23,180 bases of DNA from a virus, in IMG/VR virus record IMGVR_UViG_3300033985_000007, positions 1 through 23,180 of that record; one strand, given 5' to 3'. Both the position numbers and the translations under genes were made by a program. Of this stretch, positions 3,320 through 10,745 are shown in pieces. Each line of letters starts with the position of its first letter. Within the stretch, counting starts at the first letter, position 1. The notes under the pieces are model-generated. The model ran no database searches. It had not been told where the DNA came from and saw only the letters and a list, made by a program, of their open reading frames with translations.

Positions 3320-3847
3320 ATGTCCAAGAAACTCTACCTCATGATCGGCATCCCCGGCTCAGGAAAGTCCACCTACGTCAACAATCTGGTCAAAGACTAC
3401 GGAGTCCAAGTCGTATGCGCTGACGACATCCGTAAAGCCTTCGGTCACGTCTTCTACGGAGCCATCGAGCCTATGATTCACGCCTGGACCTACACCCAGG
3501 CCCGTGCCCTCATGTCCCGTGGCTTCGACGTCGTGATCGATGAATGCAACACCCGTCCCGAGTACATTCGTCGCTGGCGTCAGGCCGCTGTCGAATTCGG
3601 CTACGAGATCATCGGTGTCCACATCATCACCGACAAGGCCACCTGTATCGCCCGTCGAGATGATGGAAAGTTCCCGCTGGAAGTGATTGACCGGAAGGAG
3701 GCGCAGCTCCGCTCCAACCTCCCCGATATCATCGATGAGCTGGACCTCTACATGCCTGTGTTCCAGGATGGGACTGACGGGCTATATGCTGGTTCCACTA
3801 CCGAGGCCTATTACTGGGAGAACATGAGACCGGAGGTTACAGACTGA
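3320..3847 (+). CDS. Polynucleotide kinase-like P-loop protein
   Basis: Encodes 175 aa: a single kinase domain of the T4 Pnk type. The Walker A loop is GIPGSGKST (10-18). CADDIR (33-38) matches the substrate-binding Asp/Arg segment, and VVIDECNT (about 71-78) forms the next core strand. The Arg-rich CIARRDDGK supplies a lid. Predicted role: ATP-dependent phosphorylation of 5'-OH ends of DNA or RNA. It is much shorter than T4 Pnkp (about 300 aa) because there is no C-terminal phosphatase domain. Placed right after a DNA ligase, it could prepare damaged ends for sealing. It ends in TGATG, coupling it to nrdD. Nucleic acid rather than small-molecule phosphorylation is inferred from the family pattern. 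Confidence 0.85.
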   Translation: MSKKLYLMIGIPGSGKSTYVNNLVKDYGVQVVCADDIRKAFGHVFYGAIEPMIHAWTYTQARALMSRGFDVVIDECNTRPEYIRRWRQAAVEFGYEIIGVHIITDKATCIARRDDGKFPLEVIDRKEAQLRSNLPDIIDELDLYMPVFQDGTDGLYAGSTTEAYYWENMRPEVTD

Positions 3848-5784
3848 TGAACATCCACATCAGCTACGATCCTGAATTCGTGACGCTGATGGAAACCTTG
3901 AAGGCTGCCCTTCCCGCTGAACTCTTTGAGATCGACGGGATCGGCAGCCAGCTCGATCTCCATCAGTCCAGTAAACTCTTCTTCAACTATACCGACAAGC
4001 CCACAGCTGACCATTCCGTGGACGCCAACGCCAACGTATCGGGCCGGGACGTCATCACCTACAACTACGAAGTCCCCAAGCCGTTGATGAAGCTGAACTC
4101 CTACTACAACCTCTGGAAGACCATCAGGGAACTGGAGGACATCGAGACTGCGGACGAGGTCATCATCGATCAGCTCGTTGGAGCCATCTACATCAACGAC
4201 GTCTGGGACATCGGGCGTCCATACTGCTTCAACTACAGCACCTACGACATCGCCCTGGAGGGCTTGAAGATGGGCAGCCGGCTGGACATCAAGCCAGCCA
4301 AGGGCCTCTCTTCCTTCCTTCGCCAGATCGAGCAGTTCACGGTGTACGCTGCGAACTCGACCTTGGGAGCCACCGGCTTGGCCGACCTCCTGATCGTGGC
4401 TTCCTGGTACGTGGATGGGATCTACGAGACCGGCAGGGACCACAAGATCGAGGTCTCTCACATCAAGACCTACGTCAAGGAACTGCTGACCAGCCTGATC
4501 TACACGCTGAACTGGGAGTTCCGTGGGAATCAGTCCCCGTTCACCAACGTGTCGATCTATGACCGGAAGTTCCTGGAGGAGCTGGCCCCGGCTTACCTGA
4601 TCAACGGTGTGGCTCCGAACGTCGACACCATCGTACAGGTGCAGGAGTGGTTCCTGGAAGCCTATCGGGAAACCCTCCAGCGTGATCCCATCACGTTCCC
4701 TGTGCTGACCGCTTGTTTCTCCATCAACGACGATAACGAGATCCAGGACGAGGAGTTCCTGGAGCTGATCGCCAAGGAGAACCTGTCCTTCGGTCACATC
4801 AACATCTACTGCGGGAATACCTCAACCCTGTCCTCCTGCTGCCGTCTTCGTTCCGACATCGAGTCCATTGGGTACAGTAACACCTTCGGGGCTGGAGGTA
4901 CGAAGATCGGAAGCCTGGGCGTGGTCACGTTGAATCTCCCCAGGATGGCCAATGAGACGATGGAGTATGTCGAACTCGCCTTGACCGAGGGCGTTGCGAT
5001 AGATCCGGCTGAAGCCTTCCTGCGTGAGCTGGAGCACATGGTTCGCCGTGCTGGTCTGATCAATCACGCCAAGCGTACCTTCATCGGGAAACGCATCAAG
5101 CGTGGCTCCCTGCCGCTCTACACGCTGGGCCTGATGGACCTGAAGAAGCAGTTCTCCACCTGTGGATTCACTGGCTTGTATGAGGCATGTCGGATCCTCG
5201 GCTACGACATCCTCACCGAGGAAGGGCAGGAGTTCGCAAGGAAGATCCTCGACACGATCAACGCGGTGAACACCGAGCTGACCAGGAAGTACGGCTACCC
5301 GCACAACATGGAACAGGTTCCTGGTGAAACGTCCTCCGTGAAGCTGGCCCAGAAGGACAAGATCTGCGGCTGCAACCCGGAGGACATTCCGTTCTACTCC
5401 AACCAGTTCATCCCCTTGGTTTCCCAGGCCGACATGCTGGAGCGTATCAAGCTTCAGGGTATGTTCGACTCTCACTGCACTGGTGGAGCCATCTGCCACC
5501 TGAACGTGAACGAACAGATCTCCTCCTGGGAGAAGCTGGCTGACCTCATCAAGTGGTGTGCCAAAAGTGGCGTGATATACTGGGCGGTGAACTACGCCCT
5601 TGGGAAGTGCCCCAACGGTCATGGCATGTCAGTGGTCAAGCAGGATACCCCTGCCTGTCCGACCTGTGGTGCTCTCATGGAAGTGTTCACCCGTGTTGTT
5701 GGATTCCTCACAAACACGAAACACTGGAGTTACACCAGACGTAAACACGACTGGCCTAACCGTAAGTTCTACAGGAGCATCTGA
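3847..5784 (+). CDS. nrdD: Anaerobic (class III) ribonucleoside-triphosphate reductase
   Basis: Encodes 645 aa. It reduces ribonucleoside triphosphates to dNTPs under anoxia, using a glycyl radical. The C-terminal RVVGFL places the radical glycine at G619. A metal-binding element precedes it: C588, H592, C604 and C607 (CPNGH ... CPTCG), where family members usually have four cysteines. SSCCRLR (C331/C332) holds the thiyl-radical cysteine, and IGRPYCFNYS (C127) aligns with the second active-site cysteine of the T4 enzyme. The N-terminus enters the reductase domain directly, with no ATP-cone I can recognise. Translation is coupled to the kinase upstream by TGATG, and nrdG follows at once. The gene shares the codon style of its neighbours, so it is not an obvious recent arrival. 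It implies an anaerobic or facultative host. Confidence 0.95.
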   Translation: MNIHISYDPEFVTLMETLKAALPAELFEIDGIGSQLDLHQSSKLFFNYTDKPTADHSVDANANVSGRDVITYNYEVPKPLMKLNSYYNLWKTIRELEDIETADEVIIDQLVGAIYINDVWDIGRPYCFNYSTYDIALEGLKMGSRLDIKPAKGLSSFLRQIEQFTVYAANSTLGATGLADLLIVASWYVDGIYETGRDHKIEVSHIKTYVKELLTSLIYTLNWEFRGNQSPFTNVSIYDRKFLEELAPAYLINGVAPNVDTIVQVQEWFLEAYRETLQRDPITFPVLTACFSINDDNEIQDEEFLELIAKENLSFGHINIYCGNTSTLSSCCRLRSDIESIGYSNTFGAGGTKIGSLGVVTLNLPRMANETMEYVELALTEGVAIDPAEAFLRELEHMVRRAGLINHAKRTFIGKRIKRGSLPLYTLGLMDLKKQFSTCGFTGLYEACRILGYDILTEEGQEFARKILDTINAVNTELTRKYGYPHNMEQVPGETSSVKLAQKDKICGCNPEDIPFYSNQFIPLVSQADMLERIKLQGMFDSHCTGGAICHLNVNEQISSWEKLADLIKWCAKSGVIYWAVNYALGKCPNGHGMSVVKQDTPACPTCGALMEVFTRVVGFLTNTKHWSYTRRKHDWPNRKFYRSI

Positions 5785-5786
5785 AC

Positions 5787-6245
5787 GTGAACATCATAGC
5801 CACCGACTTCACCTTGGAGCACGGTGCTGTTGAGGTGTATCTCGCTGGCTGTAACCGCCGTTGCCCTGGTTGTCACAACCCAGAGACCTGGGATTTCAAC
5901 CAGGGTAACGATTGGCGGTATCAGGTCACAGATCGCAACCTCATGCAGCGATTGAAGACTCCACTCACCGATAAAATCTGGATTATGGGAGGTGAGCCTC
6001 TCGACCAAGATCTGAAGGAGCTTGCAGCATTCCTCGATTTCTGTTCTGAGGCCAAGCGGCCCATCTGGTTGTGGACATCCTACGAACTGGATGATGTCCC
6101 TGATTCGATCCTGGTACGAGTCAATGTAATCAAAACAGGGCGATATATTCAGGATCTTCCTGGTTACAAAGACGAGAAAACCGGGATTTTCCTGGCGTCA
6201 TTGAACCAACGTTTCACATGGCTTCCAATTACCCTGCACTTTTAG
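5787..6245 (+). CDS. nrdG: Anaerobic ribonucleotide reductase activating protein (radical SAM)
   Basis: Encodes 152 aa, the expected size for NrdG. The radical-SAM cluster motif is C22-NRR-C26-PG-C29, followed by HNPETWDF, which is diagnostic for this activase. IMGGEPL (about 70) is the GGE motif that contacts the SAM methionine moiety. NrdG uses a [4Fe-4S] cluster and SAM to generate the glycyl radical on NrdD, encoded 2 nt upstream. The start is GTG, with AGGAG (5777-5781) lying within the end of nrdD. The C-terminal LASLNQRF also fits the family. With NrdD it forms a self-contained anaerobic dNTP-producing pair. Confidence 0.94.
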   Translation: MNIIATDFTLEHGAVEVYLAGCNRRCPGCHNPETWDFNQGNDWRYQVTDRNLMQRLKTPLTDKIWIMGGEPLDQDLKELAAFLDFCSEAKRPIWLWTSYELDDVPDSILVRVNVIKTGRYIQDLPGYKDEKTGIFLASLNQRFTWLPITLHF

Positions 6246-8500: not shown

Positions 8501-9262
8501 ATGAGTACCCAGAATCCGAACGAAGGTATGACCATCGAGGCTCCCTATGAAGAAACCGGTCCGAACGACCCTAATGCGGATCCTTCTGCTGCTGCTGATG
8601 ATGGAGGTGACAACCATACGCCTGATCAGGTAGATGGGAATGAACCCCAGGACGAAGGGAGCAACGATACACCTTCACCTGATCAGGAAGGGGATCAGAA
8701 AGGGGATCAGGAAGGGGATCAGTCCTCTTCTAACGCTGTTGCCAGTACGCTGAAAGCCGCTGGCTTGAACATGGACGACTTTACGAGGGAGTTCACTGAA
8801 TCCGGTACTCTGTCCGAGGAGTCCTTCCAGAAACTTGAGAAGGCTGGATTCCCCCGGCCCTTAGTCGAGCAGTACCTCGCCGGTGCGAAGGTCAATGTGA
8901 CCATCGCCAAGGAACAGGAAGCCGCGATTAAAGGAACCGTAGGTGGACCTGAAGCCTACAAGGCCCTTACTCAATGGGCGGCTGATAACCTGAATGCGGA
9001 TGAAATCGAAGCCTACAACAACATCATGGCATCTGGTGACATCAAGGCCATCAAGTTCGCCGTCGCTGGTCTGAAGGCTCGATACGACGCACAAGCCGAG
9101 CCGAACCTAATCGGAGGTAACGCTCGTTCCACTGTTACCAAGACTGACGTCTTCCGCTCCGCTGCTGAGGTCGTCGCTGCCATGAAGGATCCACGCTACG
9201 GGAAAGATCCCGCCTACACCCGTGATGTCGAGATGAAGCTCGCTCGTTCCGACGTCTTCTGA
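8501..9262 (+). CDS. Capsid assembly scaffolding protein, T7 gp9-like
   Basis: Encodes 253 aa. It guides assembly of capsid subunits into a procapsid and then leaves the particle. The first ~80 residues are very acidic and low in complexity, including a DQ(E/K)G tandem repeat at 61-74. The middle is helical (MDDFTREFTESGTLSEES, LEKAGFPRPLVEQYLAGA). The C-terminus (FRSAAEVVAAMKDPRYGKD, then VEMKLARSDVF) matches the conserved capsid-interacting end of T7 gp9-type scaffolds. It lies directly after the portal as in T7, but unlike in T7 it is separated from the capsid gene by three small genes. Confidence 0.92.
   Translation: MSTQNPNEGMTIEAPYEETGPNDPNADPSAAADDGGDNHTPDQVDGNEPQDEGSNDTPSPDQEGDQKGDQEGDQSSSNAVASTLKAAGLNMDDFTREFTESGTLSEESFQKLEKAGFPRPLVEQYLAGAKVNVTIAKEQEAAIKGTVGGPEAYKALTQWAADNLNADEIEAYNNIMASGDIKAIKFAVAGLKARYDAQAEPNLIGGNARSTVTKTDVFRSAAEVVAAMKDPRYGKDPAYTRDVEMKLARSDVF
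8681..8722 (+). repeat. 12-bp tandem repeat in scaffold gene (3.5 copies)
   Basis: The unit gatcaggaaggg occurs at 8681, 8693 (one G-to-A change) and 8705, followed by a half unit at 8717. It is in frame and encodes DQEG-DQKG-DQEG-DQ in the acidic disordered N-terminal part of the scaffold. Slippage could change its copy number without breaking the gene. Confidence 0.9.
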
Positions 9263-9290
9263 TCAACCATTAAAATCTAATGGAGGTATG

Positions 9291-9476
9291 ATGCCCTTCA
9301 TCGAATGGATCACCACCAACGGTGATGCCATCGCCGCTGCTTTGCTTGCGATCCACGCCGCTGCGGTTGCCATCGTCAACCTGACGCCCACGCCGAAGGA
9401 TGATGAAATTATAGCCAAGCTCTACAAGCCCATCGAGTGGCTGGCTGGCATCCTGACCAAGAAGGCCAAGGAGTAG
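9291..9476 (+). CDS. Small single-helix membrane protein, holin candidate
   Basis: Encodes 61 aa from the ATG at 9291; the in-frame ATG at 9288 is only 1 nt from the GGAGG (9282-9286), so 9291 is preferred. One long apolar stretch, DAIAAALLAIHAAAVAIVNL (about 11-30), forms a probable transmembrane helix. It is followed by TPTPKDDEIIAKLYKPIEW and a Lys-rich end (TKKAKE). A short N-terminus, one helix and a basic C-terminal tail fit a class III-like holin or pinholin. The two genes after it include an Rz1-like lipoprotein, which supports a lysis role. No sequence motif proves it; an inner-membrane accessory protein is the alternative. Confidence 0.7.
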   Translation: MPFIEWITTNGDAIAAALLAIHAAAVAIVNLTPTPKDDEIIAKLYKPIEWLAGILTKKAKE

Positions 9477-9478
9477 GG

Positions 9479-9658
9479 ATGAATGGAGTCCTCAAGCTCA
9501 TCACGCTCCTGGCCGACCTCCTCACCTTCCTGGTCGAGACATTCCGGAAGGAGAAGGCTCAAGCATCTGCTGATCGTATCGATGCTGATCCTGCTGGTGA
9601 GTTCTTGCGCCGTTTCAAACGCACCCCGGACTCCAATCCCAGTTCCAAACCTTCCTAG
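9479..9658 (+). CDS. Small membrane-associated protein overlapping the Rz1-like gene, possible spanin partner
   Basis: Encodes 59 aa. The N-terminus is hydrophobic or amphipathic (VLKLITLLADLLTFLVETF, about 4-22), followed by a charged helix (RKEKAQASADRIDADP) and GEFLRRFKR. Small phage proteins with a hydrophobic head and a DPxxxFxxxF tail often sit beside Rz/Rz1 genes. It is far shorter than a typical inner-membrane spanin such as lambda Rz, so calling it an i-spanin would be speculative. Its ATG (AAGGAG at 9468-9473, 5 nt spacing) lies 4 nt before the ATG of a second frame, so most of this DNA encodes two proteins. Confidence 0.6.
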   Translation: MNGVLKLITLLADLLTFLVETFRKEKAQASADRIDADPAGEFLRRFKRTPDSNPSSKPS

Positions 9659-9749
9659 TGCCTGGGTGAATGACCAGGGCGGCATCTGCCTGGACAAGGA
9701 TGATACTGCCCGTCTTCTTCATTACATCGACCAACTACAACACCAATAA
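9483..9749 (+). CDS. Rz1-like outer-membrane lipoprotein (o-spanin candidate)
   Basis: Encodes 88 aa in the +1 frame relative to the 59-aa gene. A basic segment (RRRLKH, 23-28) and a hydrophobic core (LLIVSMLILL) lead to the lipobox LVSSC, with the lipidated cysteine at C42. The mature part is about 47 aa: Pro-rich (NAPRTPIPVPNLPSAW), then GGICLDKDDTARLLHYIDQL, a pattern I associate with Rz1-like proteins. O-spanins join the outer membrane to an inner-membrane partner and finish Gram-negative lysis. An internal ATG at 9582 would leave only 8 residues before the Cys with no positive charge, so I prefer 9483, although its Ser-rich leader is long and unusual. The true start is uncertain. Confidence 0.68.
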   Translation: MESSSSSRSWPTSSPSWSRHSGRRRLKHLLIVSMLILLVSSCAVSNAPRTPIPVPNLPSAWVNDQGGICLDKDDTARLLHYIDQLQHQ

Positions 9750-9782: not shown

Positions 9783-10745
9783 ATGGCTGATGCTATCCGT
9801 TCTAATCCTGGTTGGATCAATGGCGTAGGTGGTACTTACGAACAGGACAACGCCATGTTCCTCAAGGTCTTCACTGGTGAAGTCCTGACCGCCTTCGACG
9901 AGACCAACGTCATGAAGGATCTGCATCGTGTGCGCACCATCGCTCACGGTAAGTCTGCCCAGTTCGTGGTGATGGGTAAGGCTGCTGCCCGTTACCATAC
10001 CCCCGGTACGCCGGTCCTTGGTTCCAACCAGATCAAGCAGCATGAGCGTGTCATCAACATTGATGATCTGCTCCTGGCTGATGTGTTCATCTATGACCTG
10101 GACGACGCGAAGAACCACTTCGATGTTCGCCAGGAGTACAGCAAGCAGCTTGGTGCCGCCTTGGCCCGTGCTTTCGACCAGAAGACCATGCGTGTTGGTA
10201 TCCTGGCTGCTCGTTCCGCTGGCCTGATCGACGACGAACCTGGGGGCACGATTCTGAAGAACACCGCCGCTCATACCGATGGTGAGGTTCTGGCGTCCCT
10301 GATCTTCAAGTGCGCCCAGAGTTGGGATGAGAAGGATGTCCCGGACATGGATCGCTGCGTCATCGTGAAGCCTGCCCAGTACTACCTGCTGGCCGAAACC
10401 ACCAAGGTCATCAACCGTGATTGGGGTGGCTCCGGTGTGTACGCTGATGGTACGGTCCTGAAGGTGGCTGGCGTTCAGATCGTGAAGTCCAACAACGTGC
10501 CCACTGGCGTTGTGACCACGGTTGAAGGTGAACGCAACACCTACAGCGGTGACTTCACCGACACCGTCGCTCTGGCCCTCCAGAAGGAAGCCATCGGCAC
10601 GGTGAAGCTGAAGGATCTGGCCGTCCAGAAGTCCGGTGCTGACTTCAACGTCATGTACCAGGGCACTTTGATGGTGGCGAAATACGCTATGGGTCACGGC
10701 ATCCTTCGTCCTTCCTGTGCCATCGAGATCAGCAAGGCCGCTTAA
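9783..10745 (+). CDS. Major capsid protein, T7 gp10A-like
   Basis: Encodes 320 aa, slightly shorter than T7 gp10A (about 345), and should adopt the HK97 fold. Family signatures include NAMFLKVFTGEVLTAFDETN, the loop region TIAHGKSAQFVVMGKAAARY, HTPGTPVLGSNQIKQHERV, and IDDLLLADVFIYDLDDAKNH. AGGAGA at 9769-9774 precedes the ATG by 8 nt. The gene is followed at once by a strong intrinsic terminator, as T7 gene 10 is by T-phi, which favours high capsid expression. No frameshifted long form (10B) can be inferred; only about 10 nt separate the stop from the terminator stem. Confidence 0.95.
   Translation: MADAIRSNPGWINGVGGTYEQDNAMFLKVFTGEVLTAFDETNVMKDLHRVRTIAHGKSAQFVVMGKAAARYHTPGTPVLGSNQIKQHERVINIDDLLLADVFIYDLDDAKNHFDVRQEYSKQLGAALARAFDQKTMRVGILAARSAGLIDDEPGGTILKNTAAHTDGEVLASLIFKCAQSWDEKDVPDMDRCVIVKPAQYYLLAETTKVINRDWGGSGVYADGTVLKVAGVQIVKSNNVPTGVVTTVEGERNTYSGDFTDTVALALQKEAIGTVKLKDLAVQKSGADFNVMYQGTLMVAKYAMGHGILRPSCAIEISKAA

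Follow-up and report, generated by a model that had tools for sequence, protein, structure and literature searches.

A candidate two-component spanin pair opened by ATGAATG between the scaffold and capsid genes of a T7-like phage fragment

Spanin genes have been sorted into classes that include embedded and overlapped arrangements (Kongari et al. 2018, PMC6139136). Among the pairs collected in SpaninDB the shortest combined periplasmic sequence is 62 residues (PMC6139136), and 507 of the 528 known two-component pairs have at least one periplasmic cysteine for an intermolecular disulfide. Searches for spanins have relied on TMHMM (PMC7660901).

The stretch analysed here, called the window, is a 23,180-nt fragment of a T7-like phage (IMGVR_UViG_3300033985_000007, positions 1 to 23,180) in which the string ATGAATG opens two frames. 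On balance we take the resulting 59-aa and 88-aa ORFs to be an overlapped two-component spanin pair in a late lysis slot between the scaffold and major capsid genes. The lipoprotein is very probably the o-spanin, and the 59-aa protein is, with somewhat better than even probability, a short i-spanin. The proposal draws on the sequence anatomy, the family matches, the conservation of both frames, the lysis context and the co-occurrence of the two families.

The ATGAATG locus and its two products

Three small ORFs occupy the interval between the scaffold and capsid genes (Table 1). A sequence-only reading of the locus had described two ATGs 4 nt apart behind one Shine-Dalgarno-like site, and two frames sharing 176 nt; direct reading confirms both, with AAGGAG standing 5 nt from ATG1 and 9 nt from ATG2 as the putative ribosome site of the two starts. 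The same reading placed the lipoprotein gene inside the other one, but the nesting is the reverse: the lipoprotein gene continues 91 nt beyond the end of the 59-aa gene, which lies almost wholly within it. The embedded class of Rz/Rz1 was rejected on this ground, the o-spanin gene not being contained in the i-spanin gene, and the pair belongs to the overlapped class. What survives of the earlier likeness to Rz/Rz1 is the spanin type, best supported by the profile match of the lipoprotein and by the lysis slot, whereas the nesting is inexact.

Table 1. Features in and around the scaffold-capsid interval of the window.
Feature	Position	Strand	Basis
Scaffold gene	8501-9262		PF05396
62-aa protein, phrog_9685 family, candidate holin	9288-9476	+	profile, hydrophobicity, neighbours
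Putative Shine-Dalgarno-like AAGGAG, single, for both starts	9468-9473	+	direct reading
ATGAATG (ATG1 9479-9481, ATG2 9483-9485)	9479-9485		direct reading
59-aa ORF, phrog_9219 family, proposed short i-spanin	9479-9658	+	profile, alignment, relatives
88-aa lipoprotein ORF, phrog_8971 'Rz-like spanin' family, proposed o-spanin	9483-9749	+	profile, substitutions, lipoprotein scan
Overlap of the two frames	9483-9658
Predicted 41-aa lipoprotein signal peptide	9483-9605	+	direct reading
Lipobox LVSS-C	9594-9608	+	direct reading, regex scans
Predicted lipidated Cys42	9606-9608		sequence pattern only
Rest of mature lipoprotein: TPIPVPNLP stretch, Cys70, C-terminal DxxxLxxYIxxL motif	9609-9746	+	alignment A3
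Major capsid gene	9783-10745		PF21703

In a PHROG profile search, residues 30-86 of the 88-aa protein match phrog_8971, 'Rz-like spanin', with an E value of 2.8e-5, and whole-record searches place its close relatives at 3.5e-7 to 8.4e-7. The predicted signal peptide has, ahead of GRRRLKH-LLIVSMLILL, some 21 aa of N-terminal extension. Direct reading and regex scans bear out the clear lipobox LVSSC with Cys42, the pattern from which a signal peptidase II lipoprotein is predicted, and the 88-aa ORF is the only lipoprotein-like ORF in a six-frame scan of the window, made with a filter that recovers nine of nine control lipoproteins. The mature part had been called Pro-rich, which is true to a modest degree (5 Pro in 47 residues). 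Alignment A3 of the lipoproteins has P53, P55, L78, Y81 and L85 invariant and D74 near-invariant. Cys70, predicted to be the single periplasmic cysteine of the mature lipoprotein, supplies the cysteine typical of two-component spanins. A unimolecular spanin (u-spanin) was rejected: there is no C-terminal span, and the highest 19-residue mean in the mature part is 0.42.

The 59-aa protein matches phrog_9219 at 1.2e-4 in the same kind of search (relatives, 4.1e-5 to 4.7e-6), a family annotated in PHROG as of unknown function; we know of no experimental support for the function of any of its members. The protein consists of an N-terminal hydrophobic helix, a charged helix, a DPxxxFxxxF motif and a free C-terminal tail, has no Cys, and shares the invariant M1, P38 and F46 of alignment A1. 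A single-sequence AlphaFold2 model, which carries no information on topology, has helices at 3-32 and 38-47. The hydrophobic N-terminus noticed earlier is thus present, but its strength as a membrane span appears borderline: the Kyte-Doolittle mean is 1.78, within a family range of 0.7-1.8 in which ECBP5 is clearly low, and K6, D13 and E20 lie on one face of an amphipathic helix. A type II inner-membrane topology is therefore not secured, and the positive charges that follow the helix would, by the positive-inside rule, favour a cytoplasmic C-terminus. So weak a helix possibly leaves room for a peripheral role, and it could also let TMHMM-based searches (PMC7660901) overlook phrog_9219. The earlier objection that the partner is far too short for an i-spanin was too strong, since the roughly 37 residues after the helix and the 47 of the mature lipoprotein add up to 84, against the SpaninDB minimum of 62.

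Lysis context and the roles of the two proteins

Direct tblastn against phage records gave no match for the 59-aa protein and six weak Vibrio matches only for the lipoprotein, and Pfam and NCBIfam hold no relevant match for either; the Vibrio matches were the path to phages with the same pair and to both families. In Vibrio phage 1.259.O the phrog_9219 protein has 61 aa, and the gene of a 67-aa lipoprotein, unannotated, overlaps its own. In SP6 an unannotated 72-aa ORF with a GTG start lies between gp44 and gp45 (AY370673.1, 39586-39804; L139, 1187-1405), and the 3' part of it runs into gp45 in another frame; this ORF matches phrog_9219 at 2e-35, gp45 matches phrog_8971 at 1e-33 and gp44 matches phrog_4712, 'holin', at 1.5e-26. 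The lipoprotein is in the +1 frame of its partner in every overlapping case examined. When 14 records, picked along the way and not at random, were searched with both profiles, nine had both families and five had neither. Searched against the phage collection, the phrog_9219 protein of ECBP5 has matches in 158 records and the ECBP5 lipoprotein in 165, the hosts listed being nearly the same for both; a narrowed family alignment run against viral contigs found two loci only, broader family alignments being too diverse for the scan. Most public records of the pair annotate one ORF only, namely the lipoprotein in SP6, K1E, UAB_Phi78, Aer_P220, Kp7 and Premi and the partner in PM 93, KpnP_VR702, K1-ULIP33, CrRp3, fTuEco01 and Tola, and both are annotated in VL73. 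Kongari et al. 2018 (PMC6139136) describe a gene-calling bias with which such half-annotation agrees. In the open-access papers searched, the phrog_9219/gp45 overlap of SP6-like phages is nowhere described.

In SP6-like and Vibrio phages the order is endolysin, holin (phrog_4712 or phrog_9685), phrog_9219, phrog_8971. The window has its two genes overlapping on one strand, behind a holin-like gene and in a slot that holds lysis genes in relatives. The 62-aa upstream protein matches phrog_9685 (E 5.3e-12) and has one strong hydrophobic segment (best 19-residue Kyte-Doolittle mean 2.25); its homologues in other phages adjoin an endolysin-like gene or precede i-/o-spanin-like pairs, and it is a putative holin. 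The wider family of TPTPKDDE small membrane proteins (phrog_9685-like; L047-L126), with 346 matching viral loci and sometimes directly before an endolysin-like gene (L051-L053), probably consists of holins that lack a functional label. ProddE, the isolate with the closest capsid, has a lysozyme and a holin-like gene in the scaffold-capsid slot, and Pseudomonas phage LUZ100 has there a phrog_9685 gene and after it a 78-aa i-spanin-like protein, unnamed in the record, that is overlapped by an o-spanin-like lipoprotein (L003, 1584-1926). Similar 78-79 aa proteins with an overlapping lipoprotein follow a phrog_9685-like protein in L055, L058, L061, L063, L064, L068, L069 and L073. At L031 (3430-3612 and 3497-3757), and likewise at L032, a lipoprotein overlaps an unrelated hydrophobic protein of 60 aa, which stands after a 56-aa membrane protein in the scaffold-capsid slot; the two are possibly an independent short spanin pair.

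The endolysin candidate of the lineage is a T7-lysozyme-like amidase found among the early genes of a 42.5-kb relative, G001 (PF01510, 3.5e-21; phrog_822); lysozyme PF00959 was not found in the close relatives. The scanned parts of G001 hold no other convincing lipoprotein, about 11 kb being covered only via the homologous window. Where T7 has its holin, behind the tail fibre gene, G001 also encodes a 91-aa protein whose membrane span is C-terminal. It has a tyrosine integrase as well (L135, 1-9000; PF00589, 8.5e-23), given which this T7-like lineage may be temperate. An anaerobic ribonucleotide reductase (NRDD, E 3.5e-82) and an activase-like radical-SAM gene at 3847-6245 of the window suggest, in a T7-like phage, an anaerobic host; the Desulfovibrio phage ProddE also has nrdG. 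A scan of GTDB genomes with the capsid protein returned no relative.

Once an endolysin and a holin are accounted for, the places of inner and outer spanin go to phrog_9219 and phrog_8971. The most serious alternative, which we consider unlikely, accepts the lipoprotein as o-spanin and makes the 59-aa protein a membrane-bound cytoplasmic lysis accessory (a holin regulator or similar) held by its amphipathic helix, the membrane partner being the 62-aa protein or a gene elsewhere. The short amphipathic helix found across phrog_9219 and the positive charges behind it in the 59-aa protein suit this role, and the annotators of Proteus phage Premi gave the name 'i-spanin' to the upstream single-span protein of 47 aa, which counts against phrog_9219. 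The group of phage X29, where an opposite-strand gene stands between phrog_9219 and phrog_8971 in the order endolysin, phrog_9685, phrog_9219, phrog_8971, likewise counts against a paired reading. However, the gene upstream belongs to phrog_9685 in the window and X29 but to phrog_4712 in SP6-like phages, whereas phrog_9219 keeps phrog_8971 as its companion, and the assigned endolysin and holin leave phrog_9219 the place of the i-spanin. Far less probable is a lipoprotein outside lysis, for example a late-expressed one serving superinfection exclusion. Small phage lipoproteins of that kind exist, and in one distant relative the signal peptide, though no other part, weakly matches phrog_1119 'Cor' (0.058), but the specific match to phrog_8971 covers the mature part and the related phages carry the gene in a lysis cassette.

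As an overlapped spanin pair, the two proteins would be translated from one ribosome site, the 59-aa protein from ATG1 and the lipoprotein from ATG2. After export the lipoprotein would receive its lipid at Cys42 and reach the outer membrane as o-spanin, and the 59-aa protein would sit in the inner membrane by its N-terminal helix with the charged helical part in the periplasm. Once holin and endolysin had removed the peptidoglycan barrier, the C-terminal parts of the two proteins would join and bring the membranes together for fusion. A role would thereby be proposed for a family of unknown function that is found in at least 158 sequenced phage records, most of which leave it without annotation or name. 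One of them is the model phage SP6, in which phrog_9219, overlooked so far, is a strong i-spanin candidate. A minimal spanin partner, with about 37 residues after the membrane helix, also becomes testable, and in ATGAATG nature would provide an example of a single ribosome site that starts two members of the same complex.

Start codons and constraint in the shared stretch

Five viral contigs with capsid identities of 94-100% are close relatives of the window. Both frames and both ATGs are intact in all five, and the lipobox frame is uninterrupted throughout, so the conservation that the sequence-only reading proposed as a check was found. The shared stretch has 12 changed sites, five silent in the 59-aa frame, five in the lipoprotein frame and two in neither; those silent in the 59-aa frame all lie before the lipobox, and the three after it, in the mature part, are all silent in the lipoprotein frame. 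Seven of nine changed sites in the lipoprotein-only tail are synonymous. These counts from the window's own lineage are small, and the pattern fits two genes with constraint apparently passing from one to the other. In SP6-like phages the partner's unshared 5' part is under purifying selection (pN/pS 0.485; the two remaining frames have 0.87 and 2.58).

In the overlapping relatives the likely lipoprotein start is 76-85 nt into the partner, or 100 nt in Kp7 and F4M1D, which have a longer partner start. The lipobox Cys lies at +142 to +148 from the partner start in relatives, at +166 in Kp7 and F4M1D and at +127 in the window, and mature lipoproteins have 46-50 aa in overlapping relatives and 47 aa in the window. 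The window codons at +76, +79 and +85 are AGG, CTC and CAT, none a start codon, and ATG 9483 (offset +4) is the only in-frame ATG, GTG or TTG that leaves a usable signal peptide with a charged n-region, which points to it as the start. Most simply, the usual o-spanin start would have been lost in the window's lineage, initiation now lying some 22-25 codons further upstream. It is quite improbable that both proteins are made with the lipoprotein starting inside at a non-AUG codon, such as CTG 9567 behind GAAGG, and the ATGAATG spacing incidental: the internal starts of relatives and a AAGGAGAAGG stretch at 9548-9557 are in keeping with this, but a CTG start gives a signal peptide without positive charge, whereas the start at ATG 9483, an ATG found in each of the six sequences, retains GRRRLKH. 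A single real gene, with the second frame open by chance, is the least probable reading, for although the +1 frame stays open in 7.3% of 20,000 trials in which the 59-aa protein was recoded synonymously (0.6% with a lipobox as well), each frame matches its own separate PHROG family, both are open in all relatives, and the unshared part of each family is under purifying selection.

Only tentatively do we extend the spanin-pair reading to a general account, in which the phrog_9219 proteins, the unannotated SP6 ORF included, would be inner-membrane spanin partners of very small size whose amphipathic, borderline membrane helix TMHMM-based searches would be prone to miss, and in which the window's o-spanin would have lost its usual start and moved to 4 nt after that of its partner, leaving the inner gene almost entirely nested in the outer, the reverse of Rz/Rz1.

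Comparison with known systems

The nearest counterparts are the pairs of SP6-like phages (Molineuxvirinae and Gajwadongvirus; the unannotated SP6 ORF with gp45, K1E, ECBP5, Premi, VL73), which belong to the same two families and share the +1 overlap, a mature lipoprotein of 46-50 aa and a holin-like gene directly upstream. They differ in start offset (76-85 nt, 100 in Kp7 and F4M1D, against 4 nt), in partner length (61-80 aa against 59 aa) and in the place of the cassette, which is beside the tail spike in SP6-like phages and between the scaffold and capsid genes in the window. The suspicion of a reduced or different spanin arrangement thus holds for the 4-nt start spacing, which is peculiar to the window's lineage, but not for the pair as such, since the same two families overlap in SP6-like phages. 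Vibrio phage 1.259.O (61 aa and 67 aa) resembles the window in both families, in the +1 overlap and in its short partner, and differs in an offset of about 79 nt and a phrog_4712 holin upstream. LUZ100 has its pair in the same scaffold-capsid place, after a phrog_9685 gene and with an overlapping lipoprotein, but both its 78-aa partner and its lipoprotein are of other families; homology of the 59-aa protein to the LUZ100-type i-spanin-like protein is unsupported (profile comparison probability 10%). Lambda Rz/Rz1 is alike in combining an inner candidate with a small +1-frame lipoprotein within a lysis gene set, a likeness without demonstrated sequence relation; Rz1 lies wholly inside Rz, whereas the window's lipoprotein gene begins 4 nt into its partner and extends past it. 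Among phrog_9219/phrog_8971 pairs that of the window is divergent, and both its start arrangement and its genomic place are new.
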